Assembly (NCBI RefSeq): GCF_003286415.2
Contig: NZ_CP043450.1
Coordinates: forward strand, 2,480,001 to 2,544,000
DNA from: Mucilaginibacter rubeus
Lineage (GTDB): Bacteria > Bacteroidota > Bacteroidia > Sphingobacteriales > Sphingobacteriaceae
Direction: 5' to 3'
DNA length: 64,000 nucleotides
Shown here: positions 60 to 60,027 of the stretch, one piece after another
How the letters are laid out: every line of letters starts with the position of its first letter
Position numbering within the stretch: position 1 is the stretch's first letter
Notes under the pieces: model-generated
What the model was told of the DNA's origin: nothing
The model's input: the letters and a program-made list of their open reading frames with translations, nothing else
Databases searched by the model: none
Made by a program: the position numbers and the translations under genes

Positions 60-71
60 ACGCAAACGTTT
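60..71. promoter_or_regulatory. LacI-type operator-like site (left copy)
   Basis: The 12-mer ACGCAAACGTTT with an imperfectly palindromic context (CGCAAACGTTTTCG). The same 12-mer occurs at 55104-55115 and, inverted, at 55298-55309, both upstream of the ECF sigma gene. Alternating CAAACG/CGTTTG halves around a central CG are typical of LacI-family operators. It lies beyond the 3' end of the symporter gene, so if functional it more likely serves a gene left of the window. The sequence identity is seen; the operator role is inferred. Confidence 0.4.
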
Positions 72-100
72 TCGTTCAACGTTAAAACACATTTATTATA

Positions 101-4818: not shown

Positions 4819-4905
4819 AGCCTATTCAGATTTTTGTGTGATTTTTTGGTTGTATTTATTAATTGGTAACTTAACGCAACGAAAATAAATAAATAAATAA
4901 AAATT

Positions 4906-4917
4906 GCAATCGATTGC
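4906..4917. promoter_or_regulatory. Palindromic operator GCAATCGATTGC between xylB and its regulator
   Basis: A perfect 12-bp palindrome with a central CG, the usual form of a LacI-family operator. It lies in the 130-bp divergent spacer, 88 bases upstream of xylB and 32 bases before the regulator ATG. One site here could control both directions. Binding by the adjacent LacI-type protein is inferred. Confidence 0.6.
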
Positions 4918-4948
4918 GTAAAATATTTTTTCCAAATTGCACTCACCA

Positions 4949-5980
4949 ATGAAGAAAGTAAAACGCACAACCATTTATGACATTGCCGCCAAGCTCGGCA
5001 TAACTGCATCCTCGGTATCAAGGGCGCTGAACAACAGCAGCCAGGTAAATGAAAAGACCCGCGAGCTGATCATTAAAACCGCCGACGAGCTCAATTATAA
5101 ACGTAATACGCTTGCCTCCAATCTGCGAAAGGGGCATTCAAAAACCATTGGCGTTGTGGTACCCCGCATCAACCAGAACTTTTTCGCCAATGTAATAGCC
5201 GGGATTGAGGAAACAACCTATCAAAAAGGCTATAACCTGATCATTTGCCAATCAGGCGAGGTACATGATAAGGAAATTCAATGCGTAAACACCCTTATTA
5301 ATCAGCATGTGGATTGTATCGTGATCTCTGTATCGGCCGATAGTTATGATTATCAGCATCTGCAGAATGTGCTCGACCACGGCATACAACTGATCCAGTT
5401 TGACCGTGTTGCCGAAGAGCTGGAAACCCTTAAAGTGATCAACGACAATGAGCAGGCTTCGTACGAGGCGGTATCACACCTGATAGAAAATGGCTACAAG
5501 CGTATTGCTCTGCTTGAAGGCCCACAAAACCTGAACATCTTCCGCCAGCGAAAAACTGGTTATCTGCGGGCGTTGGAAACCCACAAGGTTGCCGTTATTG
5601 ATGAATTGGTAGTAGAAAACGCCTGGACAAAAGAACTCGGTGCCGAAGCCACACGCAAACTGCTTAACCTCCCCCAGCCTCCTGATGCGATATTCGCTTC
5701 CACTTCGGATTTTTCAGCACTGGGCGTTTTGGAAGTAGCTAATGCGATGGATATCAAAGTTCCTTCGGAGCTGGGTATTTGCGGTTACTCCAATGAAGCG
5801 TTTACAGAGATCACCAGTCCGTCTATAACCTCTATAGATCAGTTTAGTGTATATATGGGCAAAACCATCGGTAACCTGTTTTTTCAGGAGAATGCCAATA
5901 CTGAGGTTTCAGTTAAACCTAAGATTATCAGCATAAAACCAGAATTGATCATCAGGGGATCTACAGCGAAGAAGGGATAG
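4949..5980 (+). CDS. LacI-family transcriptional regulator of the xylose operon
   Basis: A cytoplasmic one-component repressor/activator. The N-terminal helix-turn-helix (TIYDIAAKLGITASSVSRAL, residues 6-25) is followed by a hinge and a periplasmic-binding-protein-like sugar sensor domain to the end. ATG at 4949 is preferred over an in-frame TTG at 4937 because it gives MKKVKRTT directly before the HTH; length is then 343 residues. It is divergent from xylBA-symporter, so a xylose-responsive XylR role is likely. It is LacI-type, not the ROK-type XylR of Firmicutes. The effector is inferred from neighbours only. Confidence 0.92.
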   Translation: MKKVKRTTIYDIAAKLGITASSVSRALNNSSQVNEKTRELIIKTADELNYKRNTLASNLRKGHSKTIGVVVPRINQNFFANVIAGIEETTYQKGYNLIICQSGEVHDKEIQCVNTLINQHVDCIVISVSADSYDYQHLQNVLDHGIQLIQFDRVAEELETLKVINDNEQASYEAVSHLIENGYKRIALLEGPQNLNIFRQRKTGYLRALETHKVAVIDELVVENAWTKELGAEATRKLLNLPQPPDAIFASTSDFSALGVLEVANAMDIKVPSELGICGYSNEAFTEITSPSITSIDQFSVYMGKTIGNLFFQENANTEVSVKPKIISIKPELIIRGSTAKKG

Positions 5981-44431: not shown

Positions 44432-46528
44432 TTATTTGCGATCCGGGAATTTATACTTTATTTGAATTGAATCACTTTGCAATTTCCCCTTAAAATACCC
44501 TTCGGCCCTGAGCTTATTTACGCCCTTAACCAGGTTGACGTTTTTAAATACAAAATCGTATTTAGTTGTACCCATTTCTGCCTCATCCAATTTTTTACCG
44601 TTGAGATAAAGTGTAACGTTTGAAGTATTGGCAAATACTTTCACGGTGGTTACCGCCTCTGCCCTGTCCGTATTTCTGCGGCCGCTGATGTAGAGTACAG
44701 GCTCCTGGCTCCAATTTGCTTTATACCAATAAAACGCATCCTTTTTGATTTTACGGTCATAGGCAACCAAACCTTTCATATTACGGGCTGGTACGCCGCC
44801 ACCATTGGCCGATGGTACCGAGAAATCAAACATATTCCACACATATGAGGCTACCAGGTACGGGTGCTTTTCGATAATGCCCCATTGTACCTCGTGAAAT
44901 TTTGTTTGAAATGTTTCGGGCCAAAACTGGCTCGACGGATCACCGCTATCGCCTACATTTTCCTGCTGCTGATTAACATTGGCCTCGGTGCCGTACTCCG
45001 AAAGTACAACTTTATAATTTGGATAATCTTTTTCCAGCCCGGTAACCCAATCTTCTAAATCGGGGATCTTCCCTTCGTACCAGCCATAATACCGGTTCAT
45101 GCCTTGTATATCAGCAGCCAGGTTTGAGGGCCGGTTTATTTCGCCGTAACCGCTTACGCTGGCCGTAAATCTGCCTGGATCTTCTGTTTTGGCAATATCG
45201 TTCAGTTCTCTTGTTAAAACCGGCACAAAACCATCTGGCGAACCTGAGTACACCTCGTTATGCAAACCCCAGTTATATATGGACGGATGATTATAGTTCT
45301 GCCTGATGAGTTCGGTTAACTGCTGTTTGGCATTATCCCCCTCCTGCGTAGAAACCGCGTTTACAAATGGGATTTCGGCCCATATCACAAAACCCATACT
45401 GTCGCATTTAGCATAAATATATTCGGCTTGCTGGTAGTGCGCAAAACGTATGGAGGTGGCTCCAATTTCGTAGATCATATCAAGATCGCTTTGATGCTGG
45501 GCATTGCTCAGGGCGCTTCCATAGTCCTGCCATTCCTGGTGACGACAAACACCATACAAGCGGTACGGCTGCCCGTTCAGGTAAAAACCTTTGCCCGGAA
45601 CTATCGAAAAATAGCGGAGACCAAGGGGTTGTGTCACCTCATCTATTGTTTTACCATCTTTAACAACAGCGGTAGTAAGCGAATACAGATAGGGATCTTT
45701 CCGGCCATTCCACAAGTGCGGATTATTTACTTGTAGTTGCTGATTAACGACATTTATTCCCTGAGGCTGTACATTTTGCTGTTGCTGTACCTGCTTAATG
45801 ATGATGCCGCTTTTATCGCGGATGGTGGTTTTTACAGTAATTTGCTGTACCTGCCTTTCTTTATTCTCAATTTTAGCCGTTACCGAGATGGCCGCCTTTT
45901 TATTATTTACATCCTGTTTAATATAAATACCGGGCGATGCGTAATCTGTAGTGGTTACATTAATTTTACTGGTAACAATAAGACTTACCGGGCGGTAAAT
46001 GCCACCATAAACACCAAACAGTTTGTTGTTGATAGGGATGATATCCGGCCGCTCCTCGTTATTTACTTTGACCAAAACGGTATTGGTAGTATCGTATCTT
46101 AACGAGTTGCTGATCTCAAAACAAAATGCTGAATAAGCGCCTTTATGCGTACCTACCAGTTTATTATTAATATACACGTCGGCAACAGTTCCCACACCTT
46201 CAAAACGAATGAACACCCGTTTGTCCTTCCATTCCGGCCGGGCTACAAGGTTTTTGCGGTAAAATGCATCGCCGGTATAAAAGTTTTTCCCTTTCTGAAT
46301 ATCCTTGTTATTCCAGGTGTGGGGTACGTTGACGCTTTCCCAGTCGCTGCCTGCAATAGCAATGTTGGTTTTATAAGTTGCCTTTTTAAACTGCCAATCC
46401 TGGTTAAAGGGTATAACCTGCCGGGGGGAGTTTGAACTGTTAACATCCTGTGCATTTTGAAATGCATTCACTTTTAAACCCCAACACAGGTTTATTAATA
46501 AAAACAGGATGATGTTTGTAGTACGCAT
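44432..46528 (-). CDS. Exported GH2 family beta-galactosidase-type glycosidase
   Basis: 698 residues with Sec signal (MRTTNIILFLLINLCWGLKV). GH2 layout: sugar-binding jelly roll (about 35-200), Ig-like domain (about 205-300), TIM barrel (about 305-590) and a C-terminal Ig-like domain. Acid/base glutamate in NWGLHNEVYSG (about 427) and nucleophile glutamate in VVLSEYGTEAN (about 510). Beta-galactosidase is most likely, but beta-glucuronidase and others share the family. Last gene of the operon with GH29, SusD and SusC; 27 bases after the GH29 stop. Periplasmic. Confidence 0.92.
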   Translation of the reverse strand: MRTTNIILFLLINLCWGLKVNAFQNAQDVNSSNSPRQVIPFNQDWQFKKATYKTNIAIAGSDWESVNVPHTWNNKDIQKGKNFYTGDAFYRKNLVARPEWKDKRVFIRFEGVGTVADVYINNKLVGTHKGAYSAFCFEISNSLRYDTTNTVLVKVNNEERPDIIPINNKLFGVYGGIYRPVSLIVTSKINVTTTDYASPGIYIKQDVNNKKAAISVTAKIENKERQVQQITVKTTIRDKSGIIIKQVQQQQNVQPQGINVVNQQLQVNNPHLWNGRKDPYLYSLTTAVVKDGKTIDEVTQPLGLRYFSIVPGKGFYLNGQPYRLYGVCRHQEWQDYGSALSNAQHQSDLDMIYEIGATSIRFAHYQQAEYIYAKCDSMGFVIWAEIPFVNAVSTQEGDNAKQQLTELIRQNYNHPSIYNWGLHNEVYSGSPDGFVPVLTRELNDIAKTEDPGRFTASVSGYGEINRPSNLAADIQGMNRYYGWYEGKIPDLEDWVTGLEKDYPNYKVVLSEYGTEANVNQQQENVGDSGDPSSQFWPETFQTKFHEVQWGIIEKHPYLVASYVWNMFDFSVPSANGGGVPARNMKGLVAYDRKIKKDAFYWYKANWSQEPVLYISGRRNTDRAEAVTTVKVFANTSNVTLYLNGKKLDEAEMGTTKYDFVFKNVNLVKGVNKLRAEGYFKGKLQSDSIQIKYKFPDRK

Positions 46529-46555: not shown

Positions 46556-48004
46556 CTATGTTTTGGCCTTTTGATACTGGGCACCGCTGTTTTTACTGTT
46601 ATCTGCGGTTTCTAAAACAATTACAAAAGGTCGCTTGAATGTTTGCTGCTTCAGGTGAATGAAATAAGCTGAAGTACCGATTTCTTCAGGCGCATAATTT
46701 TGCCCGGGGTTCCCAAGATCATACACCTTACTAATAGCTGTACGTGATGGCAATACAACATTTAACGCGCCGGAAACAGGCACATTAAATACCAGCATAT
46801 AAATTTTATTAGTACCTGTTTTTTTAACGTAATACCCCCAATCCTGTTTAACAAGACCGGCGTATTCACCGTTGTAAATAGCTTCACTATTGATGCCCAT
46901 CCACTCACCTATTCCCTTTGCAAGGTCCAGCTCTTCTGTTCTTAAAGTACCATCGGGCTTCGGCCCAAAGTTGAGCACGAAATTACCGTCGAGCGAAACG
47001 CATTTGGCCAGCATCTCCAGTAATTCATCAGTAGTTTTAATGTGGCCTTTCCATACCTTGCTATATCCCCACTGGTTTTCAGGCACGGTCATTACACAAT
47101 CCCAGTCGTTTCCGTGTACATCCGCTATCTTCTCCGGTATTTTGCGCTCCCAGCCCTGCTCATAATCCCCCATCATATTTCCATTAGAGTCAAAATGCCG
47201 TTTACCATATTCATCGGCCCTGAAACGGCTGCCAATGATCAATCCAGGACGCATTGCCCTCATCTCTTTTTCAAGCGAATCGGCAAAGGCGGCTTGTTTC
47301 ACCCATGATTTATCCCAGGTGCCATCAAACCATAAACCTTTGGCTGTGGGATACAGGGTAAGCAGTTCCAGTAGCTGGTTGCGGGTAAACTGTTTAAAAC
47401 GGTCAAAAGCTATGCTGTCTTCCCGGGTTTTAATATCATACCGCCAGTCGGGATTGTGCCAGTCCATAATAGAGAAGTATAATATCACATCGATACCCCG
47501 CTTGTCATAAGCCTTTACCAGCGGCCCTATAATATCTTTTTTATATGGAGAGTTAGCAACAGTAAAATTGGTATACTTACTTGGCCACAGACAAAAGCCG
47601 TCATGATGTTTTGTTGTAATGGTTACGTACTTTACCCCCATTTGCTTAGCTGTTTCAGCCCATGATTCAGCATTGAATTTGGTTGGGTTAAATTGATACA
47701 TCAATGAATCATAGGCCGTGGCAGAAACTTCCTTCCATGACTTTAACCATTCGGCAGCGCCGCTATATTGTTTACCGTTCCATTCACCTGCGGGGATGGA
47801 ATACAAGCCCCAATGTATAAATTGCCCTAAACCGTAAGCCCGCCATTTTTCCATGTCGGCGTCTGTTCTGCGGCCAATGCGGTGCGCGCCATGCTGCAGG
47901 GCAATAGGCTTTTGTGTCGTAGTTGCCGTTTGCTGTGCGTTTACATGGGCTGCATTTACACAGTTCCATGCAATTGCTATAACCAGGATCGCTTTTTTTA
48001 TCAT
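46556..48004 (-). CDS. Exported alpha-L-fucosidase (GH29)
   Basis: 482 residues with a signal peptide ending near VNAQQ. GH29 features: GRRTDADMEKWRAYGLGQFIHWGLYSIPAG (two parts, about 43-75), KYVTITTKHHDGFCLWPSK (about 124-142) and the nucleophile aspartate in GLWFDGTWDKS (about residue 228). It removes terminal alpha-L-fucose from oligosaccharides, retaining mechanism. Follows SusD on the same strand after a 63-base gap containing a hairpin. Confidence 0.95.
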   Translation of the reverse strand: MIKKAILVIAIAWNCVNAAHVNAQQTATTTQKPIALQHGAHRIGRRTDADMEKWRAYGLGQFIHWGLYSIPAGEWNGKQYSGAAEWLKSWKEVSATAYDSLMYQFNPTKFNAESWAETAKQMGVKYVTITTKHHDGFCLWPSKYTNFTVANSPYKKDIIGPLVKAYDKRGIDVILYFSIMDWHNPDWRYDIKTREDSIAFDRFKQFTRNQLLELLTLYPTAKGLWFDGTWDKSWVKQAAFADSLEKEMRAMRPGLIIGSRFRADEYGKRHFDSNGNMMGDYEQGWERKIPEKIADVHGNDWDCVMTVPENQWGYSKVWKGHIKTTDELLEMLAKCVSLDGNFVLNFGPKPDGTLRTEELDLAKGIGEWMGINSEAIYNGEYAGLVKQDWGYYVKKTGTNKIYMLVFNVPVSGALNVVLPSRTAISKVYDLGNPGQNYAPEEIGTSAYFIHLKQQTFKRPFVIVLETADNSKNSGAQYQKAKT

Positions 48005-48067: not shown

Positions 48068-49636
48068 TTAATATCCGGGGTTTTGTGTTAGGGCTGCGCC
48101 TTTATTCACATCAATTTCTGATTGCGGAATGGGCAACAGCATGTTGATATCCTTGATCGAGCCGGCCGAGGTTGGGTTGTATTTTTTCACCCGCTCAACC
48201 AGGGTCCCGGTTCGCATTAAAGTAATGCGCCTATCTTCTTCGCCAATAAGCTCACGGGCGCGCTCATCCAGAATAAAATCCATATTAATATCTGATGTCT
48301 GTACCTGCGGGGCATTTGCCCTTGTACGAAGCATGTTGATATTGCTGGCTGCCGCTGTTAAATTACCCTGCTTAAATTGTGCTTCGGCCAACAGAAGGTA
48401 GGTTTCAGCAAGACGCATATAAATCCTGTCTTTATAAGTAATTGTGCCAAAAGGGTCGGCATTGGTATACGAGTACCACTTGGTGGTGTGCGCATACATA
48501 TTTTGAATGGTATCAGTATTGGAAGTTACTACCGCCAGTTTTCCATAATTGGCAGATGAGGGGTCGTTATAGTAATATTTACGCCTGATATTATAACTGG
48601 AATTACGCATATCGTTGCTCAGGTTCAGGTTATATGTCCACCAGTTGGTCGGCCTTATCCTACCTATTCCACGCCCGCCTAATGAATCTGCTACGATCAT
48701 GCCTGGTATGTTTACGTAGAACGGCACCCAAACCCTGCGGTGCTGGTCAGTTGGACTATATCCGCCCGGTATATTAGCCTCTTCAATCACCCAAATAGCT
48801 TCGGTATTGCCCTGGCTCCGGCGCATATTGCCGTAAATAAACATATCAGAAAAAGCATCACCAGGTTTCAGGGAATTGATCCCATACCGGTTATTGACTA
48901 ACTTATACAGGCCGCCTGCTATGATCTTATTCAACTGAGCTTCGGCAAGATCAGGTTTGTTGGCCCTTAAATAGGTTACCGCCAATAGTTGCATGGCCGC
49001 AGCACTATTTATTCTTCCTTCGGCGACAACATGCGCTGCATCGGGTAGGTTTGTTGCAGCGAATGTAAGGTCGCTGACCTGCAAATTTATGATCGTATCT
49101 AAGGGTGTCCTCACATAATCTGTTTTAGGTGCGGTAACGGGCACCGTAATAAGCGGCACACCGCCAAACAAAGTAGATAGAAAATTATAAGCATATGCCC
49201 TGAAAAACCTGGCTTCGGCCACATAACCATTAACCTGGGCCGGTGTTAAACTTGTATTGCCGGATTGAGCCGCTTGTATTATTACGTTAGAGGCATTGAT
49301 AACCTGGTAGCCCCAGCGCCAAAAACCAAGGGCAGCAACATCCTGCGAATTTAATTGCGAATAGGTTTCATATGGCGCCATGGCCGCCGTGGTTTGCCCG
49401 TTACGGGCCACATCGGTACCGGTTTGCATCAGCGCTATAATTCCCTGATCACCTTCATACTGATCTCGGACCGTTTTTTGCAAACCTGCAACTGCGGCTT
49501 CAAAACTCAGGGCATCTTTTAAGGTGGACGGTGTAAACTGTGTTCTGACATCCTCATCCAGAAAACTCTTTTTACAAGAATTAAATGTGAGTACAGCTAT
49601 CAGACTTATAAAGAGTAATGAATAAATACTTTTCAT
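48068..49636 (-). CDS. SusD/RagB family outer-membrane lipoprotein (locus 1)
   Basis: 522 residues. Lipobox LTFNSC (Cys20) followed by KKSFLDED. SusD-like TPR-type helical fold with ARFFRAYAYNFLSTLFGGVPL (two parts, about 142-163) and C-terminal RLAETYLLLAEAQFKQGN. It is the surface glycan-binding lid of the SusC channel. It is 15 bases after the susC gene. The C-terminal ALTQNPGY is the family ending. Confidence 0.95.
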   Translation of the reverse strand: MKSIYSLLFISLIAVLTFNSCKKSFLDEDVRTQFTPSTLKDALSFEAAVAGLQKTVRDQYEGDQGIIALMQTGTDVARNGQTTAAMAPYETYSQLNSQDVAALGFWRWGYQVINASNVIIQAAQSGNTSLTPAQVNGYVAEARFFRAYAYNFLSTLFGGVPLITVPVTAPKTDYVRTPLDTIINLQVSDLTFAATNLPDAAHVVAEGRINSAAAMQLLAVTYLRANKPDLAEAQLNKIIAGGLYKLVNNRYGINSLKPGDAFSDMFIYGNMRRSQGNTEAIWVIEEANIPGGYSPTDQHRRVWVPFYVNIPGMIVADSLGGRGIGRIRPTNWWTYNLNLSNDMRNSSYNIRRKYYYNDPSSANYGKLAVVTSNTDTIQNMYAHTTKWYSYTNADPFGTITYKDRIYMRLAETYLLLAEAQFKQGNLTAAASNINMLRTRANAPQVQTSDINMDFILDERARELIGEEDRRITLMRTGTLVERVKKYNPTSAGSIKDINMLLPIPQSEIDVNKGAALTQNPGY

Positions 49637-49651
49637 GATTCTAATTTCTAA

Positions 49652-52600
49652 TTATTGTAAAGTAATGTTAACACCCAGCACTACGGTGGCTACCAGCGGG
49701 TAAAATGAACTGCTTTGGTTGCCTGCATAGTTATAAAAATCGGTTTCGGGGTCCCAGCCTAACCATTTCGAGAACGTTGCGATATTTCGACCGCTGGCAT
49801 AAACCTGTAAGTTAGAGATCTTTAAATCTCGCAGTACCTCTTTGGAAAAGCTGTAGCTTAAAGTAACATCCTTAATGCGGGTGTACGAACCTGAAACGGG
49901 GTACGTGTATTGCCTTGAGTTGGTATAACTTAACGATGGCCTGGTGTTACTTTGATTGGCCGCGGTCCAGTAACCTATCCCGGCCGGCAGATTGATACGA
50001 CCGGCCTGATCCCGATAATCATAAATAGGATTAGGTTTAAGCGCGCCCTGAAACGTTTGTACAAACGCGCTTAGCGAAAAGCTTTTATACCTGAAAGTAT
50101 TGGTCATACCGGCAATGTATTTGGGCAAACGTGAACCCAGGTAGGTTTTGTCGGCGGTGTTGATCTTACCGTCGCCATTTAAATCGGCGAATTTCAGATC
50201 GCCGGGCTTGGCGCTTGGGTCAACAGTAAAGTCATCACCTTTTTGCCAAACACCAATCAGCTTATAATCATATACGGCCTGCAGCTGTTTACCCAGGAAC
50301 AGGTTATTGGTGATATCATCCTTATTATCACCATAAAGTTGTACCAGTTTATTGCGGTTGGCAGAGAAGTTGACATTAGTTTCCCAGCTGAAGTCGCTAT
50401 TTTGAATATTGCGGCTGGTGATGGAAAATTCGATCCCCTTGTTAGCTGTTCGGCCTATATTATCTAAAATAGTGGTATAACCGGTGATGTAAGGTATTTT
50501 ACGCGACAATAGCAAATTGTACGTTTTAGTATCATAAGCATCAACAGAACCACTGATCCGGTCTTTTAAAATGGAAAAATCGATACCAAAGTTAAATCCT
50601 TTGGTACTCTCCCATTTTAAATTGCCGTTACCTATAGCACTCGGGTTTAACCCTATAGTTGTAGTACTACCATAGATGTATTGCGTTGAGGCCAGCGTTG
50701 TTAAGGTATTGTATGATGATACCTCCTGGTTACCCGAAATACCATAAGAAGCCCGTAATTTCAGTGCTGATATTGCTGATACGCCTTTCATAAACGATTC
50801 TTCGGTTAAATTCCAGGCTACCGCGACCGATGGGAATGTGCCATATTTATTGGCGGCGCTAAATCCCGAAAAACCGTCACGACGAGCGGTAGCGGTAAAC
50901 AGATACTTCCCGGCGTAAGAATAATTGATCCGTGCCATCTGCGACAGCAGGGTACTTTGCGTATAACTTGAAGTGGTTTGCTGTATTTGTGCCGAACCTA
51001 AATTGTAAAAGTTGGTAAGGTCATTGATAAAGGTATTAGCGTTTAAGGCATTGCTCAAAGTATAATCCTTTTGTGAGCTGTATAACCCCGTAAAATCAAT
51101 GCTGTGTTTGCCAAAGCTACGGCTGTAGTTCACAATATTTTCTATAAGCCAATGGTTACTTTCGGCATTGGTCATTGTAGCGTGACCAATGGCGTCGCCC
51201 GTGTTCCTGCCGGTATAATCACCTGTCATGGCCGGGTTATAAGCATAACCAGTATTTAGCCTGTATTTAAATCCTTTAATAAACGCAGGCTTAATTTCTG
51301 CATAAAAATTGCCGTTCCAGGTTCTGTTTTTGCTAACGGTGGGTTGGTAAAGGCCTAATAACGGGTTGGTATAGAGCGCGTCCGGATACATCGGGTAGAT
51401 CTGGTAATCTCCCTGTGCGTTATATTCCTGGCCATAGGGGCTCATCACGGTAGCCATATATAAATTACTTTTGCCGCCGTCATAATTGTTATTATTAAAA
51501 AACATATTAGTACCGGCGTTCAGCCAGTCGGTAATTTTAGCATCAAGGTTTCCGCGAACATTAAAGCGATTGAACTGATATCCTTTCAGGATGCCTTTTT
51601 CTTTGGTATAATCTCCCGAAACATAATACTTAACATCAGCTGTGCCGCCAGATACGTTTAAAGAATGATTTTGAATGAAACCCTGCTGTGATATCGCTTT
51701 TATCCAATCGGTTTCCTTACCATTTTTATAATTGTCCTGCTCATACAGGTTTGGTACCGGAGCGGCTGTTTTACCAGCCTGTTCATCATAATCAAGATTT
51801 TTTTGCACATATTCGGCCCCGCCCATAGGTTTCACCTCGTGCGACATGTATTCGGGGCCTGCCCAGGCGTTGTACTGAACCGATGGCTTACCCGTTTTGC
51901 CCTTTTTAGTGGTAACGATAATTACCCCGTTTGATCCTCTTGTACCATAAATAGCTGTAGCCGATGCATCTTTCAGCACCTGGACTGACTCCACATCATT
52001 GGTATTGATATCATTATAGGAGCCATTATAAGGCACTCCGTCCAACACAACCAAAGGAGAATTACTGGCCGTAATGGAATGCAGCCCACGAACATAAATT
52101 GAGCTTACCGAACCTGGTGCCGATGAACCGGATGTTATATTGATACCCGGGACCGCGCCTTCAATTGACTGCAGGATATTGGTGACCGGCAAATTTTCCA
52201 GCCGCTGTTTAGAAACCGAGATAATAGCCCCTGTAACGTCGCTTTTTTTCTGGCTTCCGTAACCTATCACAACAACCTGCGACAACTCTCTTGAAGTCTC
52301 TTTTAATACGACACGCAGCGTTGTTTGGTTATTTACCCCAATTTCCTGCTGAAGATAACCTATTGATGTAACGAGCAGCACCCCGGCAGATGGAACATCT
52401 TTCAATTCAAATTTACCATCAGCATCAGACATTGTTCCTTTGCTGCCGTCCTTTAGCTTTACTGTTGCTCCGGGTATAGGTCGCCCGGTTGAATCAATAA
52501 CGATGCCTTTAACAGTGATTATCGAAACCTCCACACTGCCTGCACCGGTAGTAGAGTTATTGCCCGCCTGTTTTTCGGCAGCCTTTATAACAATTGTTTT

Positions 52601-52933
52601 TTCAAAAAAAATATAGCTTAGGGCCTTGCCGTCAATGCAGTTCTTTATTACTTCATCCAAAGGGGTATTGACAAAGTTGGCATTGATCTTTACTGAAGCA
52701 TTAAGCCTGCCGGGCTGATAAAGTACATCATAGCCGGTTTGTTTCTTAATGGCTTTAAAAACCTGCTTTAACGTTACATTCTTCTGCGTTAAGTTAAGCT
52801 TTTGCCCAAACGTTGAGGCGCTTACTTGTAACATGGTAACGGTTAGTAAAAGGATGGTGAGTTTCATCATCAACAGTAATTTGGGCACGCGGCGCTTCGG
52901 CCAACGTAAAATCTCGATGTAAAATTTATACAT
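49652..52933 (-). CDS. SusC/RagA TonB-dependent receptor with N-terminal STN signalling domain (locus 1)
   Basis: 1093 residues. A long N-terminus leads to the signal segment MKLTILLLTVTMLQVSAST (an internal MMKLT start is possible). Then STN domain (about 45-115, LKQVFKAIKKQTGYDVLY), carboxypeptidase-regulatory-like domain (about 140-215), plug (VVIGYGSQKKSDVTGAI) and a 22-strand barrel ending VVLGVNITLQ. STN domains contact FecR anti-sigma factors; the adjacent fecR/sigma pair fits. It imports glycan across the outer membrane with SusD. Confidence 0.96.
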   Translation of the reverse strand: MYKFYIEILRWPKRRVPKLLLMMKLTILLLTVTMLQVSASTFGQKLNLTQKNVTLKQVFKAIKKQTGYDVLYQPGRLNASVKINANFVNTPLDEVIKNCIDGKALSYIFFEKTIVIKAAEKQAGNNSTTGAGSVEVSIITVKGIVIDSTGRPIPGATVKLKDGSKGTMSDADGKFELKDVPSAGVLLVTSIGYLQQEIGVNNQTTLRVVLKETSRELSQVVVIGYGSQKKSDVTGAIISVSKQRLENLPVTNILQSIEGAVPGINITSGSSAPGSVSSIYVRGLHSITASNSPLVVLDGVPYNGSYNDINTNDVESVQVLKDASATAIYGTRGSNGVIIVTTKKGKTGKPSVQYNAWAGPEYMSHEVKPMGGAEYVQKNLDYDEQAGKTAAPVPNLYEQDNYKNGKETDWIKAISQQGFIQNHSLNVSGGTADVKYYVSGDYTKEKGILKGYQFNRFNVRGNLDAKITDWLNAGTNMFFNNNNYDGGKSNLYMATVMSPYGQEYNAQGDYQIYPMYPDALYTNPLLGLYQPTVSKNRTWNGNFYAEIKPAFIKGFKYRLNTGYAYNPAMTGDYTGRNTGDAIGHATMTNAESNHWLIENIVNYSRSFGKHSIDFTGLYSSQKDYTLSNALNANTFINDLTNFYNLGSAQIQQTTSSYTQSTLLSQMARINYSYAGKYLFTATARRDGFSGFSAANKYGTFPSVAVAWNLTEESFMKGVSAISALKLRASYGISGNQEVSSYNTLTTLASTQYIYGSTTTIGLNPSAIGNGNLKWESTKGFNFGIDFSILKDRISGSVDAYDTKTYNLLLSRKIPYITGYTTILDNIGRTANKGIEFSITSRNIQNSDFSWETNVNFSANRNKLVQLYGDNKDDITNNLFLGKQLQAVYDYKLIGVWQKGDDFTVDPSAKPGDLKFADLNGDGKINTADKTYLGSRLPKYIAGMTNTFRYKSFSLSAFVQTFQGALKPNPIYDYRDQAGRINLPAGIGYWTAANQSNTRPSLSYTNSRQYTYPVSGSYTRIKDVTLSYSFSKEVLRDLKISNLQVYASGRNIATFSKWLGWDPETDFYNYAGNQSSSFYPLVATVVLGVNITLQ

Positions 52934-53136: not shown

Positions 53137-54264
53137 TTAATTGGATACAGTTATCCTGTTATCTAAAACTGTAAAATGAACTGCATTGGTTAGTTCCAGC
53201 GTTTTAATAACCTGCGACACATTTTGGTATTTAGATACCGTACCACTAAAAACCAGGGATTGTAGTGAGGCATCTTTGTACTCCACTTCCACATTGTACC
53301 ACCTGGATACCTTTTTCATGATACTTGCCAGGTTTTCATCATTAAAAAGAAAATAGCCGTTTTTCCAGGCTACAGCCTCATCTATGTCAACCTCCTCAAC
53401 ATTCATGGCATCACCATTAATGGTGGATTGCTCCCCCGGCTTAATGATCCTTTTTTGATTAGTTAACGCTGATGTGACCTTAACGGATCCCTCAAGCAAA
53501 GTAGTGGCAGTTGTTTTTTCGTCAGCATAAGCATTAATGTTAAAATGAGTCCCTAACACTTCTACCTGCTGCAGCCTTGTCTTTACTTTAAAGGGCATTG
53601 CTTTATTGTGCGCTACCTCAAAATATGCTTCGCCCGTCAGCTCCACCAGCCGTTCTTTACCTGTAAACACCACCGGGTATTTAAGCGTAGAAGCCGCGTT
53701 TAACCATACATGTGACCCATCAGGCAATATCACCTGGTATTGTTCGCCTTTGGAAGTAGCAAGGGTATTGATCCGGCCGGCAGACTGGTTGGCGTTGCCG
53801 GATGCCTGAGTTGTATAAATAAGTTCACCTTTAGCGTTTTTACTAACAGTAACCCCCGCCTCATTGGCAAGCTGTCCGCTAAGTGTATTATTTAATATTA
53901 GCTTTTTACCACTGGCCAGGGTAAGCGTGGCCTGGTTTCTACCCGGTTTTACATCAGTTTTACTAATACGAGGTGCTGCATCCTGTTCGTTTCGGTGCAA
54001 CAGGTAATAAGTACCTGTAAATACAAACAGCAATATGGCCGCCGCGGTTAACCGATATCTTCCATTCTGGAATTTAGAAGATTGTTTCTTTTTAATATTA
54101 TCCCAAACCTGGTCAACATCTTCCACCCGTTCATGGTCATTTACCTCAAATGGAGCCTGCTGATTATGTTTTAAGTACCAGCTTTCTAAAAACGCTTTAT
54201 CTTCCGGAGTAGCCTGGCCGGATCTGAAACGTTCCCATAATTCATTTAGTTCTTTATCTTCCAT
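53137..54264 (-). CDS. FecR-family anti-sigma factor
   Basis: 375 residues: cytoplasmic sigma-binding N-terminus (about 1-70, starting MEDKELNELWERF), a transmembrane helix (71-90), and a periplasmic FecR domain (GEQYQVILPDGSHVWLNAAS, LTGEAYFEVAHN) with a C-terminal DUF4974-type domain (about 300-375). It holds the ECF sigma factor inactive until the STN domain of SusC signals. Lies 94 bases after the sigma gene. Confidence 0.95.
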   Translation of the reverse strand: MEDKELNELWERFRSGQATPEDKAFLESWYLKHNQQAPFEVNDHERVEDVDQVWDNIKKKQSSKFQNGRYRLTAAAILLFVFTGTYYLLHRNEQDAAPRISKTDVKPGRNQATLTLASGKKLILNNTLSGQLANEAGVTVSKNAKGELIYTTQASGNANQSAGRINTLATSKGEQYQVILPDGSHVWLNAASTLKYPVVFTGKERLVELTGEAYFEVAHNKAMPFKVKTRLQQVEVLGTHFNINAYADEKTTATTLLEGSVKVTSALTNQKRIIKPGEQSTINGDAMNVEEVDIDEAVAWKNGYFLFNDENLASIMKKVSRWYNVEVEYKDASLQSLVFSGTVSKYQNVSQVIKTLELTNAVHFTVLDNRITVSN

Positions 54265-54358: not shown

Positions 54359-54937
54359 TTATAAATGCAAGAACACCAACAGGTATACAACTATTCCCAA
54401 TTTTACTTTTAAAATTTTTAATGCATTGGTAATTTGTTTACTTACGGTTTGTTCTGATATCTCCAATTTCCAGGCAATTTCCCTGTGGCTTAGATACTCT
54501 TTTCTGCTCATTATAAATATCGCTTTCATTTTAGGTGGAAGCATAGCAATTTCCCGTTCAATACTTTCCCGTAGCAGGTTTTCTCTAACACGATGGTCAG
54601 TTACTACCTGTTCATGTAATGCAAATGCTTTCATAGCGTCATGATATTTTTCATGAACCCGGTTACGGGACATTTTATTCAGGATGGCGTTCCTGACAGC
54701 GCCATATAAATAGCCCGACAAGCTTCCGGTAAACTCGATCTGTTCACGCTTAGCCCACAAATAGGTAAAAACTTCCTGGATAATATCTCTGGCTTCTTCG
54801 CGGTCGCGCAATTTATTAATTGCGTGCGCATGAAGGATAAATTTATAGCGGTCATAAATTTGGGCATAAGCTTTATGATCGCTCCCCTTTAAAAGCAGTA
54901 TCAATTTCTCATCAGTTAATTTGCTGTAATGTTCCAT
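54359..54937 (-). CDS. ECF RNA polymerase sigma factor (FecI-like)
   Basis: 192 residues with region 2 (YKFILHAHAINKLRDREEARDIIQEVFTYLW in two parts, about 29-61) and region 4 (MPPKMKAIFIMSRKEYLSHREIAWKLEISEQTVSKQI in two parts, about 135-173). It should direct transcription of the SusCD/GH29/GH2 operon when released by FecR. The C-terminus ends in a hydrophobic stretch (VVYLLVFLHL). Two operator-like sites lie 167-372 bases upstream. Confidence 0.93.
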   Translation of the reverse strand: MEHYSKLTDEKLILLLKGSDHKAYAQIYDRYKFILHAHAINKLRDREEARDIIQEVFTYLWAKREQIEFTGSLSGYLYGAVRNAILNKMSRNRVHEKYHDAMKAFALHEQVVTDHRVRENLLRESIEREIAMLPPKMKAIFIMSRKEYLSHREIAWKLEISEQTVSKQITNALKILKVKLGIVVYLLVFLHL

Positions 54938-55103
54938 TATTTCAGTATCCCAAAAGACGGCACGCCCCGGAACAGGTAACCAAAGGCGTTTTCATAAAAT
55001 TAAACATGATCAAATCCTTAAGGATTCATAAACAAATCTTTAAGAATACTGGAAGTTAGGTTATCAGACACCTGTTTTGAGCATGAGGAGCAGTGCAAAC
55101 ACT

Positions 55104-55116
55104 ACGCAAACGTTTG
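55104..55116. promoter_or_regulatory. LacI-type operator-like site upstream of the ECF sigma gene (proximal)
   Basis: ACGCAAACGTTTG containing the perfect 10-bp palindrome CAAACGTTTG (55107-55116). It lies about 167 bases upstream of the sigma start. Identical in 12 bases to the left-edge site at 60-71. Confidence 0.5.
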
Positions 55117-55296
55117 ATTAATGGAAGTCGATTGCTGCCGGGTTGGAGTAAATAAATATCATAAAATGTCTGTTATTTGTTTAACGCCGCAAAAATCCTG
55201 CAACTATGGAGTATTAAGGCAACCGGTAAAGCTTAGTACTTCATGCTATCATAGCTATATTCGAGTTTGCCGGTAACGTGAGGCCCAAACTTCAAA

Positions 55297-55309
55297 CAAA
55301 CGTTTGCGT
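55297..55309. promoter_or_regulatory. LacI-type operator-like site upstream of the ECF sigma gene (distal)
   Basis: CAAACGTTTGCGT, the inverted form of the same site; the palindrome CAAACGTTTG is at 55297-55306. The two palindrome centres are 190 bases apart, close to 18 helical turns, so looping by one repressor is possible. Confidence 0.5.
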
Positions 55310-55833: not shown

Positions 55834-56280
55834 ATGCCTGATCATATCACTGATGCTGAATATCTGGAATTACGCCTCGATCCGCAGCAAAAATATTTCA
55901 GCCGTAAAAGCGGAAAGAATAAAAGATACTTCTATTCATTAAAAACAACTACGATCATAATAGCATTGACTATTCCGGTTATGTCCGGATATCTGAAAGA
56001 AAATGATAGTATAAAATATATAATCAGTATTCTCAGTTTAATGCTGGCACTTTTAGCTGGATTAGAGACCATATTTCAATTTAATGAAAAATGGATCAGA
56101 GACCGGAATACATCAGAGGCTTTAAAACAGGAAAAATTTCTGTTTCTTTCTAAGGCGGGTCCTTACTCAACTACTGCTACGGTAAAGGAACTTGCAGAAA
56201 GAGTAGAAACCATATTATCTAAAGAGAATTCGAGTTGGAGTCTTTTGGTCAAGAAAACACAGCAAAAAAAGAATAACTAA
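55834..56280 (+). CDS. DUF4231/SLATT-like two-helix membrane protein
   Basis: 148 residues. Two close transmembrane helices (about 37-53 and 61-78) joined by a short loop, then a soluble helix (FQFNEKWIRDRNTSEALKQEKFL). This layout and sequence fit DUF4231, part of the SLATT superfamily, predicted pore-forming effectors linked to nucleotide second-messenger immunity. Here it is alone, with no SMODS nucleotidyltransferase, SLOG or reverse transcriptase neighbour, so the defence role is unproven. The gene is AT-rich compared with its neighbours. Confidence 0.75.
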   Translation: MPDHITDAEYLELRLDPQQKYFSRKSGKNKRYFYSLKTTTIIIALTIPVMSGYLKENDSIKYIISILSLMLALLAGLETIFQFNEKWIRDRNTSEALKQEKFLFLSKAGPYSTTATVKELAERVETILSKENSSWSLLVKKTQQKKNN

Positions 56281-56446: not shown

Positions 56447-58075
56447 TTAACGAGCGCCTGCACCAGTTGAAGTAGTTGATGTATTGTCGATCACTTGTAT
56501 ACCCATAATCCGGTTTATAAATTCGTCTGGACCGACGATAGCTTTTGATTTGATACGTATCTTATAAGTGTAAATGGTGCTCACCGTGTATTCAAGTATT
56601 TTGGCTATGGTCTCATTATCACTGATACCAAGCCGAAGCAATGCGAATATCCTTAAATGCGGATTCAGCACTTCATCCCCTTTCGGCCATATCTGATCCT
56701 CGGGTTTCAAAAGCGCGTTAAACAGCGTTATGAAATCAGGAAACATCAGGAGAAAAACGCGGTCGAAAGTGCGGAAAAGCTCATCCCGTTCCTTTTTAAT
56801 ATCCACGTTACCTAAAAGCTTCAGGATATCGCCATATTTTTCAGTCTTTATTTTCCGTTCGACATTCCGTTTTAGCTTTTCAAGTTTAACAATATATTCA
56901 GCGTATACATTAAAAAAGTAACCAATATAAACCTCTTTGATACGAGCATCTTCGGCTAAACGCAAATTGTTTTTTTCTAACTGCTTATTTTTATCGGCTA
57001 TGATAAGCTCTTTTACGCGCAAGCGTTTAAGTTGAATAAAAACTATAAATGAAATTGAAGTGATGACTACTATGGCCGTTAAACTGGAGAGCAGATAAAC
57101 CAGAAATTTATTCTTCTCATTCTCGGCCAACAGTATCTTGTTAGCAGCTATATCTGCCAATACCGAGGATATTTCGATTTTATGGAGCCGTGAACCGTAA
57201 AATTCTGCATTGTTAAGCGCCTCCTGCATAAATAAATAAGCGTCTTTTACCCTCCTGCCTTTGTATAGCTCACACCCTACTTTAAAAATTGCGTTGGTTT
57301 CCTTTGTAGAGGATCTGATGTCGTTGATTGCCGCTATCAATAACAATTCCATACGCTTCCCGCCCTGGTTATAGTCGCCCAAGGCAGATGCGATCATCGC
57401 TGTTTGGTGCGCTGAAAGTTTATGGTGGTATAGCAATAATTCGTAATACCTATAGTTAGGAGTTTGCTGACCGGCGGTGTCAGGCAACTCGGCTTTATAC
57501 ATCAACTGTTCGAAAGAATCGCGGTCTGTTAACGAGATAGCAGTATCCAGGTATTTTTGCGCAATTTCACGATAACCCTTGCTGTAATATTTATCATTAT
57601 TGTAATTGGCCAGATATACATAATAAGAACATTTAAGCCTGTAATAACACAATTTCGAATTTCGGTTTAGCGCTTTGGGGTCAACTTCATTAAGGCAATC
57701 CAACGTTTCTTTAAACATTCCTGATGAGATCAGTATGATTCCTAATTTGATCTTGCTGTCATATTGTTTCGGTACGTCTTTCATGATCAGGCTTAGCTTG
57801 ATTAGCTTTTGCGTATAAACATAGGCCGAATCGTACTGGTAACTCCTGTATTCTTCAAATAGCCGGCTATATAGCCCATATTTTCTTTCCAAATCTTGCG
57901 GCTGACATTCTTTTACCTGCTGCTGGAGCGAGAGTACCCTTTTTTCCTTTTGGCGGTCAAAATAATCTTTGTTAGCCAGCGTGTTTTTCAGCAGCTCCAT
58001 TAGTCGGGCATTGCCATCTGATCCGTATGCAGCCACAGCCCAAAAAGATAATAACAGCGTATAAAAGATTTTCAT
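56447..58075 (-). CDS. Membrane-anchored DUF6377-type regulator
   Basis: 542 residues from ATG 58075 (an earlier start at 58129 adds 18 unlikely residues before the signal MKIFYTLLLSFWAVAAYG). Periplasmic helical, TPR-like region (about 20-315), one transmembrane helix (about 322-346), coiled coil (IADKNKQLEKNNLRLAEDA), and a cytoplasmic domain with a LuxR-like helix-turn-helix near 460-505 (LRIFALLRLGISDNETIAKI). It would sense a signal in the periplasm and bind DNA from the membrane. It follows the second SusD gene on the same strand by 210 bases and is its likely regulator. Confidence 0.82.
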   Translation of the reverse strand: MKIFYTLLLSFWAVAAYGSDGNARLMELLKNTLANKDYFDRQKEKRVLSLQQQVKECQPQDLERKYGLYSRLFEEYRSYQYDSAYVYTQKLIKLSLIMKDVPKQYDSKIKLGIILISSGMFKETLDCLNEVDPKALNRNSKLCYYRLKCSYYVYLANYNNDKYYSKGYREIAQKYLDTAISLTDRDSFEQLMYKAELPDTAGQQTPNYRYYELLLYHHKLSAHQTAMIASALGDYNQGGKRMELLLIAAINDIRSSTKETNAIFKVGCELYKGRRVKDAYLFMQEALNNAEFYGSRLHKIEISSVLADIAANKILLAENEKNKFLVYLLSSLTAIVVITSISFIVFIQLKRLRVKELIIADKNKQLEKNNLRLAEDARIKEVYIGYFFNVYAEYIVKLEKLKRNVERKIKTEKYGDILKLLGNVDIKKERDELFRTFDRVFLLMFPDFITLFNALLKPEDQIWPKGDEVLNPHLRIFALLRLGISDNETIAKILEYTVSTIYTYKIRIKSKAIVGPDEFINRIMGIQVIDNTSTTSTGAGAR

Positions 58076-58129
58076 TTCAGGTTTACGTTTTTTAGTACGA
58101 GTTTCATTTACAATGCCTTGTACAGACAA

Positions 58130-58152
58130 AGCCGGAATGTAACATTCCGGCT
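58130..58152 (-). terminator. Hairpin after the second SusD gene
   Basis: AGCCGGAATGT (58130-58140) and ACATTCCGGCT (58142-58152) form a perfect 11-bp stem with a one-base centre (the loop must open several pairs). The T-tract on the minus strand is weak (TTTGTCTG). Probably ends the SusCD transcript before the regulator gene. Confidence 0.5.
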
Positions 58153-58284
58153 CAATTTAATACAATCAGGAACTTATAAGGTTAGGTAAACAGGTTAAAT
58201 TATAAAGCCAGCTCTTGAAGCATTCACAATCGTCAAACAGCCTCTTTTTAAAAAATCAACCGGGCCACTGTTTTGTGAAATTTA

Positions 58285-60015
58285 CTAATAACCGGGGTTT
58301 TGCTTTAGTTGGGGATTAACATTCATGATATCCCGCCCTATAGGAAAGATCTCCGTATGCTTATCTCCATCAGGTTTTTTATCCCACCAGGTTCCGGTAC
58401 TGAATACCCCCCAGCGTATCAGGTCCGTGCGCCTGCGATTTTCGCCAATAAATTCCCTGCACCACTCGTCAAGCAGCTCCTGGTCGGAAAGCTGGCTGCC
58501 GCCTGGCTCGTAAAGACTTGATGAACCGTCGGGGAAGTTACGTTTCCTGACCTGGTTCAGTAGGCCGGCAGCACCGGCTTTATCCCCTGCCCTGTAACGA
58601 CATTCAGCAAGTGTATAATAGATCTCCGAAAGGCGAATTTCCGCATAGGCTGATGTAATCCGGTTTGGATCCGGCGTTGGGTATATGGGATATTTAACCA
58701 GGAACACCCCGGAGTTGTGATCAGCATGGTTCATGTCAGACTCCTTGTCGGCTATTTTAGTGCCCGGTTTTGCACCCAGGAACATCCCTACCTGATCACG
58801 GATGAAAAGCGGATAAGGACCTTTGTTCCCTTTTACTGTGTCTGTACGGGTAACACCGTTTACAGAATGGGTATACGGCAGGTATCCGTACAAAAACATA
58901 CCTTCACGCTGACTGTTGCCCAAATTCTTATATTTCTTTAACCGCAGGTCGTCCTGGTATTTTTGAAACTTTACAAAGGGCTTACCCAATTGGAAAGTAT
59001 ACTCAAGGCTGTCTACATCGCGTCCCGGCTGCAAAGCATAACGCGGGTTTGACTGACCGAAATCGGTAAATCCACAATAAAGCGGAGCCGCATCATAAGT
59101 CATCCCCCAGAAATACATACCAGCGTCATACTGCCAATGTGTACGAGCAAGTGAACCGGGGAAGCCATAAATAACCTCCGAATTAAGCGTGGTATTGGTA
59201 TAATCAAAAGGGGCATCCCATCTCGTATCCAGCTGATACGCACCATATTTCCCGTTGATAATATCCTGGCAAACCGCCGCGCATTCCGTATACTTTTCCT
59301 GGCCTATATAAACCTTGGCATTGAGATATAAGCGCGCCAGTAATGCCGCCGAACCGGCTTTTGTCCATCGCCCTATACCGGCGGCGCCAAGTTGTGAGCG
59401 GGTTGGTAATCCGTTTATCGCATTTTTCAACTCCGATTCGATGTAAGCAAATGTTTCCTGAGGGGTAGACTGCGGATTACCCTTGGTTGAATTTTTTACA
59501 TCGGTAACAATCTCTATATTCCGATAAAAATCAAACGCCCGCAAATAAAACCAGGCCCGCAAGGTGTGCAGTTCGGCTTTAAAGTCGGTTAATTCGGCAT
59601 CAGTTACGTTTAACTTTGACGGATCTTTAATGCCCTCCATATCTGTCAATGAGTTGGTTGCCAGAACAATACCCTGATAAAAGTTATTCCACGCGCCGCT
59701 TGTGAAATTATCGGTAATGGTCCAGGTGTGATAGTGCATCCGTTGATAGTAACCACCATCCTGCCAATCTCCCTGCCTGTTGTAGGTCCCTATTTCGTCA
59801 GTACAATCTTCGCCTGCGGCGTAAACATCATTACCTTGTATACTCCAGTAAGCATGCTCAAAAGGGCGCAGAAAATCCCGGATCACATCGTCTCGACGGG
59901 TTAGGAAACCTGCCGCATCTACTTTATCATATACGTGTTCATCCAGTTTGGTACAACTGCCGGTCAGTAAGCCCGATAGTAAAATGCCGCTGATATATAA
60001 TTTATATTTTTTCAT
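58285..60015 (-). CDS. SusD/RagB family outer-membrane lipoprotein (locus 2)
   Basis: 576 residues. Lipobox LLTGSC (Cys21) followed by TKLDEHVYD. SusD landmarks: LHTLRAWFYLRAFDFYRNI (about 148-166), RLSEIYYTLAECRYRAGD near 480 and C-terminal EFIGENRRRTDLIRWGVF and PQLKQNPGY. Surface binding partner of the SusC just upstream (12 bases). Substrate unknown; no carbohydrate-active enzyme is adjacent. Confidence 0.95.
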   Translation of the reverse strand: MKKYKLYISGILLSGLLTGSCTKLDEHVYDKVDAAGFLTRRDDVIRDFLRPFEHAYWSIQGNDVYAAGEDCTDEIGTYNRQGDWQDGGYYQRMHYHTWTITDNFTSGAWNNFYQGIVLATNSLTDMEGIKDPSKLNVTDAELTDFKAELHTLRAWFYLRAFDFYRNIEIVTDVKNSTKGNPQSTPQETFAYIESELKNAINGLPTRSQLGAAGIGRWTKAGSAALLARLYLNAKVYIGQEKYTECAAVCQDIINGKYGAYQLDTRWDAPFDYTNTTLNSEVIYGFPGSLARTHWQYDAGMYFWGMTYDAAPLYCGFTDFGQSNPRYALQPGRDVDSLEYTFQLGKPFVKFQKYQDDLRLKKYKNLGNSQREGMFLYGYLPYTHSVNGVTRTDTVKGNKGPYPLFIRDQVGMFLGAKPGTKIADKESDMNHADHNSGVFLVKYPIYPTPDPNRITSAYAEIRLSEIYYTLAECRYRAGDKAGAAGLLNQVRKRNFPDGSSSLYEPGGSQLSDQELLDEWCREFIGENRRRTDLIRWGVFSTGTWWDKKPDGDKHTEIFPIGRDIMNVNPQLKQNPGY

Positions 60016-60027
60016 ATTTTGTAGATT

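Follow-up and report, generated by a model that had tools for sequence, protein, structure and literature searches.

Two inverted sites upstream of an ECF sigma factor gene in a glycan locus of Mucilaginibacter rubeus are likely bound by one LacI-type regulator, here named LacI-A, which appears to be shared with two further sigma genes and with scattered glycan genes. It is reasonably probable, for the reading as a whole, that the sites at 55104-55119 and 55294-55309 are LacI-A operators, that they belong to a dispersed glycan regulon in which either a sigma gene or susC is the target, and that LacI-A acts by repression and turns the sigma circuit into an AND gate. The predicted motif, its link to the regulator, its conservation and its targets were obtained by sequence comparison.

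An exact search of the window, i.e. the whole analysed stretch of 64,000 nucleotides, for the 12-mer ACGCAAACGTTT returned copies at 60-71 (+), 55104-55115 (+) and 55298-55309 (-), confirming the three copies given in the preliminary description. The perfect palindrome CAAACGTTTG, hereafter the core, starts at 55107 and 55297. Both cores, separated by 190 bp, lie within the 896 bp that separate the sigma gene from an ORF with a SLATT (DUF4231) domain (55834-56280, +), so that the palindromes were correctly placed in a gene-free spacer. A scan of the window allowing up to two mismatches to the 12-mer gave 11 sites against 8.9 expected, i.e. no enrichment, and the signal therefore resides in the exact copies and in the wider genome and its relatives. 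In a search of Rfam at gathering scores, a tRNA was the sole match. The features of the locus are collected in Table 1.

Table 1. Predicted operators and genes of the sigma locus, and the site upstream of uxaC (window positions).
Feature	Position	Strand	Description
Proximal operator (predicted)	55104..55119		Sense strand AATCAAACGTTTGCGT; ~167 bp 5' of the sigma start codon
Distal operator (predicted)	55294..55309		Sense strand ACGCAAACGTTTGTTT; another 190 bp upstream of the proximal operator
Conserved block GATAACCTAACTTCCA	55050..55065	-	Past the proximal operator and ahead of the sigma gene; invariant over 16 columns in three species
ECF sigma factor gene	54359..54937	-	Pfam Sigma70_r2/r4_2; TIGR02985 above cut-off; target of the operator pair (predicted)
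FecR-type anti-sigma gene	53137..54264	-	Pfam FecR, FecR_C
SusC with weak STN domain	49652..52933	-	TIGR04056; STN E 1.6e-5, 25 bits against a cut-off of 28.4
SusD	48068..49636	-	Pfam SusD_RagB
Alpha-L-fucosidase (GH29 type)	46556..48004	-	Pfam Alpha_L_fucos E 6e-75
GH2 glycosidase	44432..46528	-	Pfam Glyco_hydro_2_C; nearest NCBIfam model LacZ4, below its cut-off
Imperfect site ACGCAAACGTTTTCGT	60..75		Upstream of uxaC, a gene beyond the left end of the window; doubtful member of the regulon

The core has 30 occurrences in the 7.63-Mb genome and its reversed control 19; the exact 12-mer has 11. Extension of the core by RCG on one side, or by CGY on the opposite one, gives RCGCAAACGTTTG, which occurred 15 times, against none for the reversed control. 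All 15 flanked core sites were intergenic, compared with 2 of the 15 without the flank (all 30 sites; Fisher p 1.8e-6); the 13 core sites that fall within ORFs all lack it. One flanked site (C1:7459861), placed where two genes converge, lacks a target. A scan with a 16-mer allowing three mismatches gave 43 matches per strand, fewer than the 56 of its control. The word is an even palindrome with a central CG and is found upstream of the regulator's own gene and of the targets, which supports the prediction of a LacI-type operator. The claim that the site is part of a dispersed regulon is supported. Regulon-wide sites were taken from loci chosen for holding a site or LacI-A, and the intergenic share is a fair measure only in the window's genome.

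The genome contains 13 LacI-type genes. Only for one of them, LacI-A (C1:3341093-3342121, about 0.8 million bases from the window), was CGCAAACGTTTGCA found within 400 bp upstream of the HTH. The protein belongs to the LacI family (PF00356 with 46.6 bits and PF00532 with 105.6 bits, both above the cut-off). Its gene is flanked by five operator copies: a pair before a nearby susC, a further pair in the gap that separates LacI-A from a divergent DUF3472 gene, and a single copy before the neighbouring gene. The product of that neighbour resembles solved N-acetylhexosamine 1-kinases (4ocu, 4wh1, 4ocj; E about 1e-55) over residues 4-350 of 361, and is predicted to be a full-length homologue of this enzyme (NahK). 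LacI-A is thus the likely regulator of the sigma operator pair.

LacI-A counterparts in M. endophyticus, M. kameinonensis, M. gossypii and M. gossypiicola are 98-100% identical, and loci were sampled from Mucilaginibacter, Pedobacter, Pontibacter, Ferruginibacter, Segetibacter and others. In the best 80 of 236 LacI-A loci the core occurred 222 times and the reversed word once. The core was present within 400 bp upstream of LacI-A in 55 of these best 80 of 236, while 25 had no core in this interval (two of these hold less than 400 bp of upstream sequence) and nine had none anywhere. Among the 11 least similar loci of the same 80, with at most 66% identity, a single one had an upstream core, indicating that the link between operator and regulator fades with distance. 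No name for the LacI-A group was found in the Pfam and NCBIfam profile libraries; the comparison gives an assignable operator to a LacI group that is widespread in Mucilaginibacter, Pedobacter and relatives.

The number of sites follows the presence of LacI-A across genomes. In 41 genomes of the genus, LacI-A was scored as present at an identity of at least 71% (a second copy in G025 has 68%), and RCGCAAACGTTTG was found 104 times in the 14 genomes with LacI-A (reversed control 8), 10 times in seven genomes with only a LacI-B-like protein of 43-50% identity (control 6), and five times in 20 genomes with neither (control 16). The difference between LacI-A genomes and genomes with neither protein was significant (Mann-Whitney p 2.5e-7, a value that ignores shared ancestry). 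For 60 genomes of the family, the counts were 18 sites in seven genomes with a LacI at least 64% identical (control 5), 11 in five genomes with 54-56% (control 3), 13 in 14 genomes with 47-52% (control 3), and nine in 34 genomes without such a LacI (control 9); the first and last groups differed with p 3e-6, again ignoring shared ancestry. A few sites also occur in genomes lacking LacI-A. A family genome whose LacI is 66% identical had all four of its sites on other contigs. The family test leaves out G000, G004 is part of both sets, and the counts behind both statistics were copied by hand from search tables. As the 80 named LacI-A loci partly overlap the genomes of the genus and family, the two sets are not independent.

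The nearest orthologues of the window's sigma gene are found in G021 (88% identical) and G016 (76%). In an alignment of the upstream regions of the three species, 155 of 487 columns were invariant as background. All 16 columns of the distal operator were invariant and are part of the longest invariant run (20 bp), and in the proximal operator 13 of 16 were, including 12 of 12 for the core plus CG, which form the third-longest run (12 bp). The GATAACCTAACTTCCA block is the second-longest (16 bp). Both operators are thus kept in the two nearest orthologues, whereas the preliminary description had named missing conservation at orthologous sigma genes as a refutation. Its proposal of a LacI-type second layer of control on an STN/FecR/sigma locus is supported. 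The next long ORF past the operators runs in the same direction as sigma in G021 and G016, so that no divergent gene explains the distal site and both operators most likely serve sigma. This next long ORF differs in both species from the SLATT ORF that lies by the sigma promoter in the window. Behind sigma, the G021 locus has ORFs similar in size and order, including an STN-bearing SusC. As a side observation, the word CTAATTTC(C), which resembles GATAACCTAACTTCCA, recurs about 56 bp past operators, chiefly at susC genes; the conserved word CTAAnTTCC is found at this distance from operators of several susC genes and of some others (e.g. L029:7597 and window 55050-55065).

Two other ECF sigma genes of the genome, C1:2807154 and C1:2820449, also have a core; in each case a second operator, itself near-perfect, lies at a distance from it of 214 and 148 bp, respectively. 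In their G016 orthologues (87% and 91% identical) the pairs are kept at 215 and 149 bp, and each of the three sigma genes thus has a conserved operator pair. The pair at C1:2807154 has sigma on one side and a divergent FecR gene on the other, which makes its target ambiguous. A sigma gene with an operator in G025 (L160) is 31% identical to C1:2820449; it was regarded as a related sigma and not counted as an orthologue. One member of a cluster guessed to be sigma was tested, had no Pfam match, and the cluster was excluded from the sigma count.

The recurrence of pairs raises the possibility that a DNA loop of some 190 bp joins the two operators into a single functional unit. The core spacing at the window's sigma gene is 190, 189 and 180 bp in the three species, the pairs at the other two sigma genes are kept as well, and pairs recur at further targets. 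However, the spacings within the regulon (27 values, collapsed by hand) displayed no helical phasing (p about 0.8 at 10.5 bp), and LacI-A has 343 residues, close to PurR (340 in the solved chains), which leaves no space for a tetramer tail of the length found in the lac type. Helical phasing was dropped as an argument, and looping is considered a tentative, rather unlikely addition to the simple reading of two LacI-A operators.

The window's locus resembles the ECF-sigma/FecR/SusCD type: sigma, FecR, SusC and SusD were all identified, and the STN match is below the Pfam cut-off. SusC proteins of all three sigma loci gave an STN match, two of the three below that cut-off, while no STN was found in two scanned SusC proteins with operators upstream. 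For one of these two the operator is 464 bp away from the susC gene, and a GH95 gene on the opposite side is closer to it. Of the other two sigma loci, one contains GH20 and three long proteins without Pfam match, the other GH20 and GH29; each of the three loci thereby has a fucosidase gene, a beta-hexosaminidase gene or both. These long ORFs (733, 779 and 857 aa; C1:2792444-2799669, L296:8445-15670) had no Pfam match at E 1e-5 and are candidate glycosidases or binding proteins in a predicted LacI/sigma-controlled locus. Further targets in this genome or its relatives are GH109, GH35, GH27, GH95, GH20, an endo-beta-N-acetylglucosaminidase-like protein, phosphoglucomutase, an epimerase, aldose epimerase and an MFS transporter. 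Others are outside the theme of N-acetylhexosamine, fucose and galactose or are uncertain: a VKOR/C39 protein, a chromate transporter, GH31, a GH43/GH35 fusion, a GH88-like protein, KduI, a HAD hydrolase, a metallophosphatase, PAP2, a short-chain dehydrogenase, a glycosyltransferase and an M1 peptidase. Two core sites 207 bp apart, C1:3986383 and C1:3986590 (L032), belong to a gene whose product combines VKOR, peptidase C39 and thioredoxin domains. Elsewhere in the window, 56447-63015 is a neighbouring locus with SusD, a large ORF in the position where SusC would be expected, and a regulator that scores above cut-off with the SusR-family model NF058541; a search of this region found no exact operator and two 2-mismatch matches (57017, 59445).

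From these targets a mechanism can be proposed, in which repression, the identity of the effector and the AND gate are inferred. LacI-A would govern a dispersed set of genes that serve the use of glycans rich in N-acetylhexosamine, fucose and galactose. Where SusC has no STN, LacI-A would act on susC directly, and where SusC carries one, on the ECF sigma gene instead. Most likely LacI-A represses, as is usual for a LacI protein, until it is released by a cytoplasmic sugar, probably N-acetylhexosamine or its phosphate, an effector suggested by the shared theme of the targets and by the kinase next to LacI-A. The sigma/FecR circuit would operate as an AND gate of a surface signal and an inner sugar signal, so that the use of surface-sensing sigma circuits for these glycans probably depends on a sugar sensor in the cytoplasm. 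One soluble regulator appears to be placed above three sigma circuits and a cytoplasmic kinase for the same kind of sugar, and hierarchical control of ECF-sigma glycan loci becomes testable by a single gene deletion. LacI-family regulators that bind DNA without ligand are mostly repressors. The majority of the family binds in this way (PMC4052901).

The position of the sites agrees with repression; two further features would allow an activator. Among 153 site-gene pairs with a single target, 131 had the site less than 170 bp upstream of the called start, where a repressor would block polymerase. Identical 70-base surroundings had been counted once; with one pair kept per similar group among these 131, 84 non-redundant proximal sites were left. 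The strong half CGY pointed toward the gene in 50 of them, away in 14 and in neither direction in 20 (p 7e-6), a bias which persisted without nahK (36, 8 and 15) and which plain repression does not require. Moreover, in 44 of 57 nahK site-gene pairs the -7 word TAnnTTTG starts exactly 36 bp past the operator start, which we take to put the nahK operator near -42 from Bacteroidota promoter spacing; five pairs outside nahK share this distance. These features would suit an activator bound in fixed orientation just upstream of the -33 element that recruits RNA polymerase. Yet 44 of the 49 spacing cases come from one gene family, so that common descent accounts for most of them, and a repressor at the same place would likewise block polymerase. 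The fixed -7 spacing was therefore rejected as general proof of activation, being found mostly in nahK homologues, and activation is judged unlikely. The same low degree of belief is given to LacI-A as a promoter-locked activator or dual regulator with a cytoplasmic veto over several STN/FecR/sigma circuits, in which the operator would sit in fixed orientation at the edge of the -33 element and sigma would be made only after entry of amino sugar into the cytoplasm. Repression by LacI-A is retained as the preferred reading.

It was also considered that a paralogue, chiefly LacI-B (C1:2979879, ~50% identical), occupies the sigma operators in place of LacI-A. The recognition helices are closely similar (ISVSTVSRALHDHPSIG and ISASTVSRALHGHPSIG), and tandem copies of the same word were found within about 200 bp behind the LacI-B gene in G001, G020 and G027, i.e. 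in three of the seven genomes with a LacI-B-like protein and no LacI-A; LacI-B may bind nearly the same word. Against its role at the sigma gene, G021 has the operator pair and LacI-A with no LacI-B-like protein among the matches listed, and sites follow LacI-A far more closely in the genus counts above. This substitution is improbable, and LacI-A remains the likely regulator. Near LacI-B in G000 (C1:2976023-2976060, L050), tandem operators about 22 bp apart are located between NAGLU and GH35 genes; they have the altered centre AACCGTT/AACGGTT in a genome that also carries LacI-A, and have possibly diverged to avoid cross-talk. Another LacI gene, C1:3378190, has the related palindrome ATAAAACGTTTTAC upstream. 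The xyl-linked LacI (window 4937-5980) was rejected as regulator because its own site differs: the near-palindrome TGCAATCGATTGCG at 4905-4918, directly upstream of its gene, is probably its own operator, in line with the different site attributed to it earlier.

Chance repeats of an AT-rich palindrome, an explanation to which the two unenriched mismatch scans would lend themselves, are very unlikely as the origin of the flanked core in view of its conservation, its intergenic placement and its tie to one regulator.

The choice among ECF-sigma glycan loci of Bacteroidota is usually explained by an outer-membrane transporter that senses its own cargo. The window's locus displays the order known from ECF-sigma/FecR polysaccharide loci of this phylum, with sigma, FecR, SusC (here with a weak STN match), SusD and glycosidases; unlike in these, a second, cytoplasmic control would act on the sigma gene itself. 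NagR and NagQ of Xanthomonas and relatives are LacI-type regulators responsive to N-acetylhexosamine that control amino-sugar, TonB-dependent transport or GH109 genes, but they have other operators and other sets of genes. Both LacI regulons and sigma/FecR loci are well-known systems. The predicted combination of the two, in which a single LacI stands above three sigma genes, did not appear among the listed titles and abstract starts of open-licence PMC papers, none of which describes a LacI-type operator on the ECF sigma gene of a glycan locus.

A survey of LacI-family regulons (PMC4052901) reports palindromic sites mostly upstream of sugar genes, as was observed here, and more than one site for about 20% of the regulated operons. 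It includes one Bacteroides group, and the word "sigma" is absent from its main text, whereas three ECF sigma genes are predicted targets here. The DNA word itself is near-identical to that of PurR of Gammaproteobacteria (RegPrecise consensus ACGCAAACGTTTGCGT; PMC4576408), including H. influenzae sites such as ACGCAAACGTTTGCTT (PMC3739930). PurR chains match LacI-A with E about 1e-33, but LacI-A is no PurR equivalog, scoring 164 bits with the NCBIfam PurR model against a cut-off of 501. The scanned LacI-A targets comprised glycan genes and none for purine synthesis.

The third copy of the 12-mer had been taken as evidence of a regulon shared with the gene left of the window, which was identified as uxaC (PF02614). 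The copy at 60-71 is part of ACGCAAACGTTTTCGT, which differs from the palindrome by one base and is not a CAAACGTTTG site. Among 30 uxaC loci examined (of 42 matches listed), a site was present in four, namely in the window's genome and three close relatives, which correspond to 4 of the 12 LacI-A genomes of this set. Sites of the type AAACGTTT precede uxaC without LacI-A in G002, G035 and G015, and in looser form in G038 (L266-L295). The shared regulon is thus only weakly supported, and a three-copy regulon including position 60 was set aside. The similar sites suggest another LacI with a similar word for uronates, and a separate uronate LacI at uxaC is the simpler reading; UxuR2 of Algoriphagus is LacI-type like LacI-A but is a predicted uronate regulator (PMC5507952).
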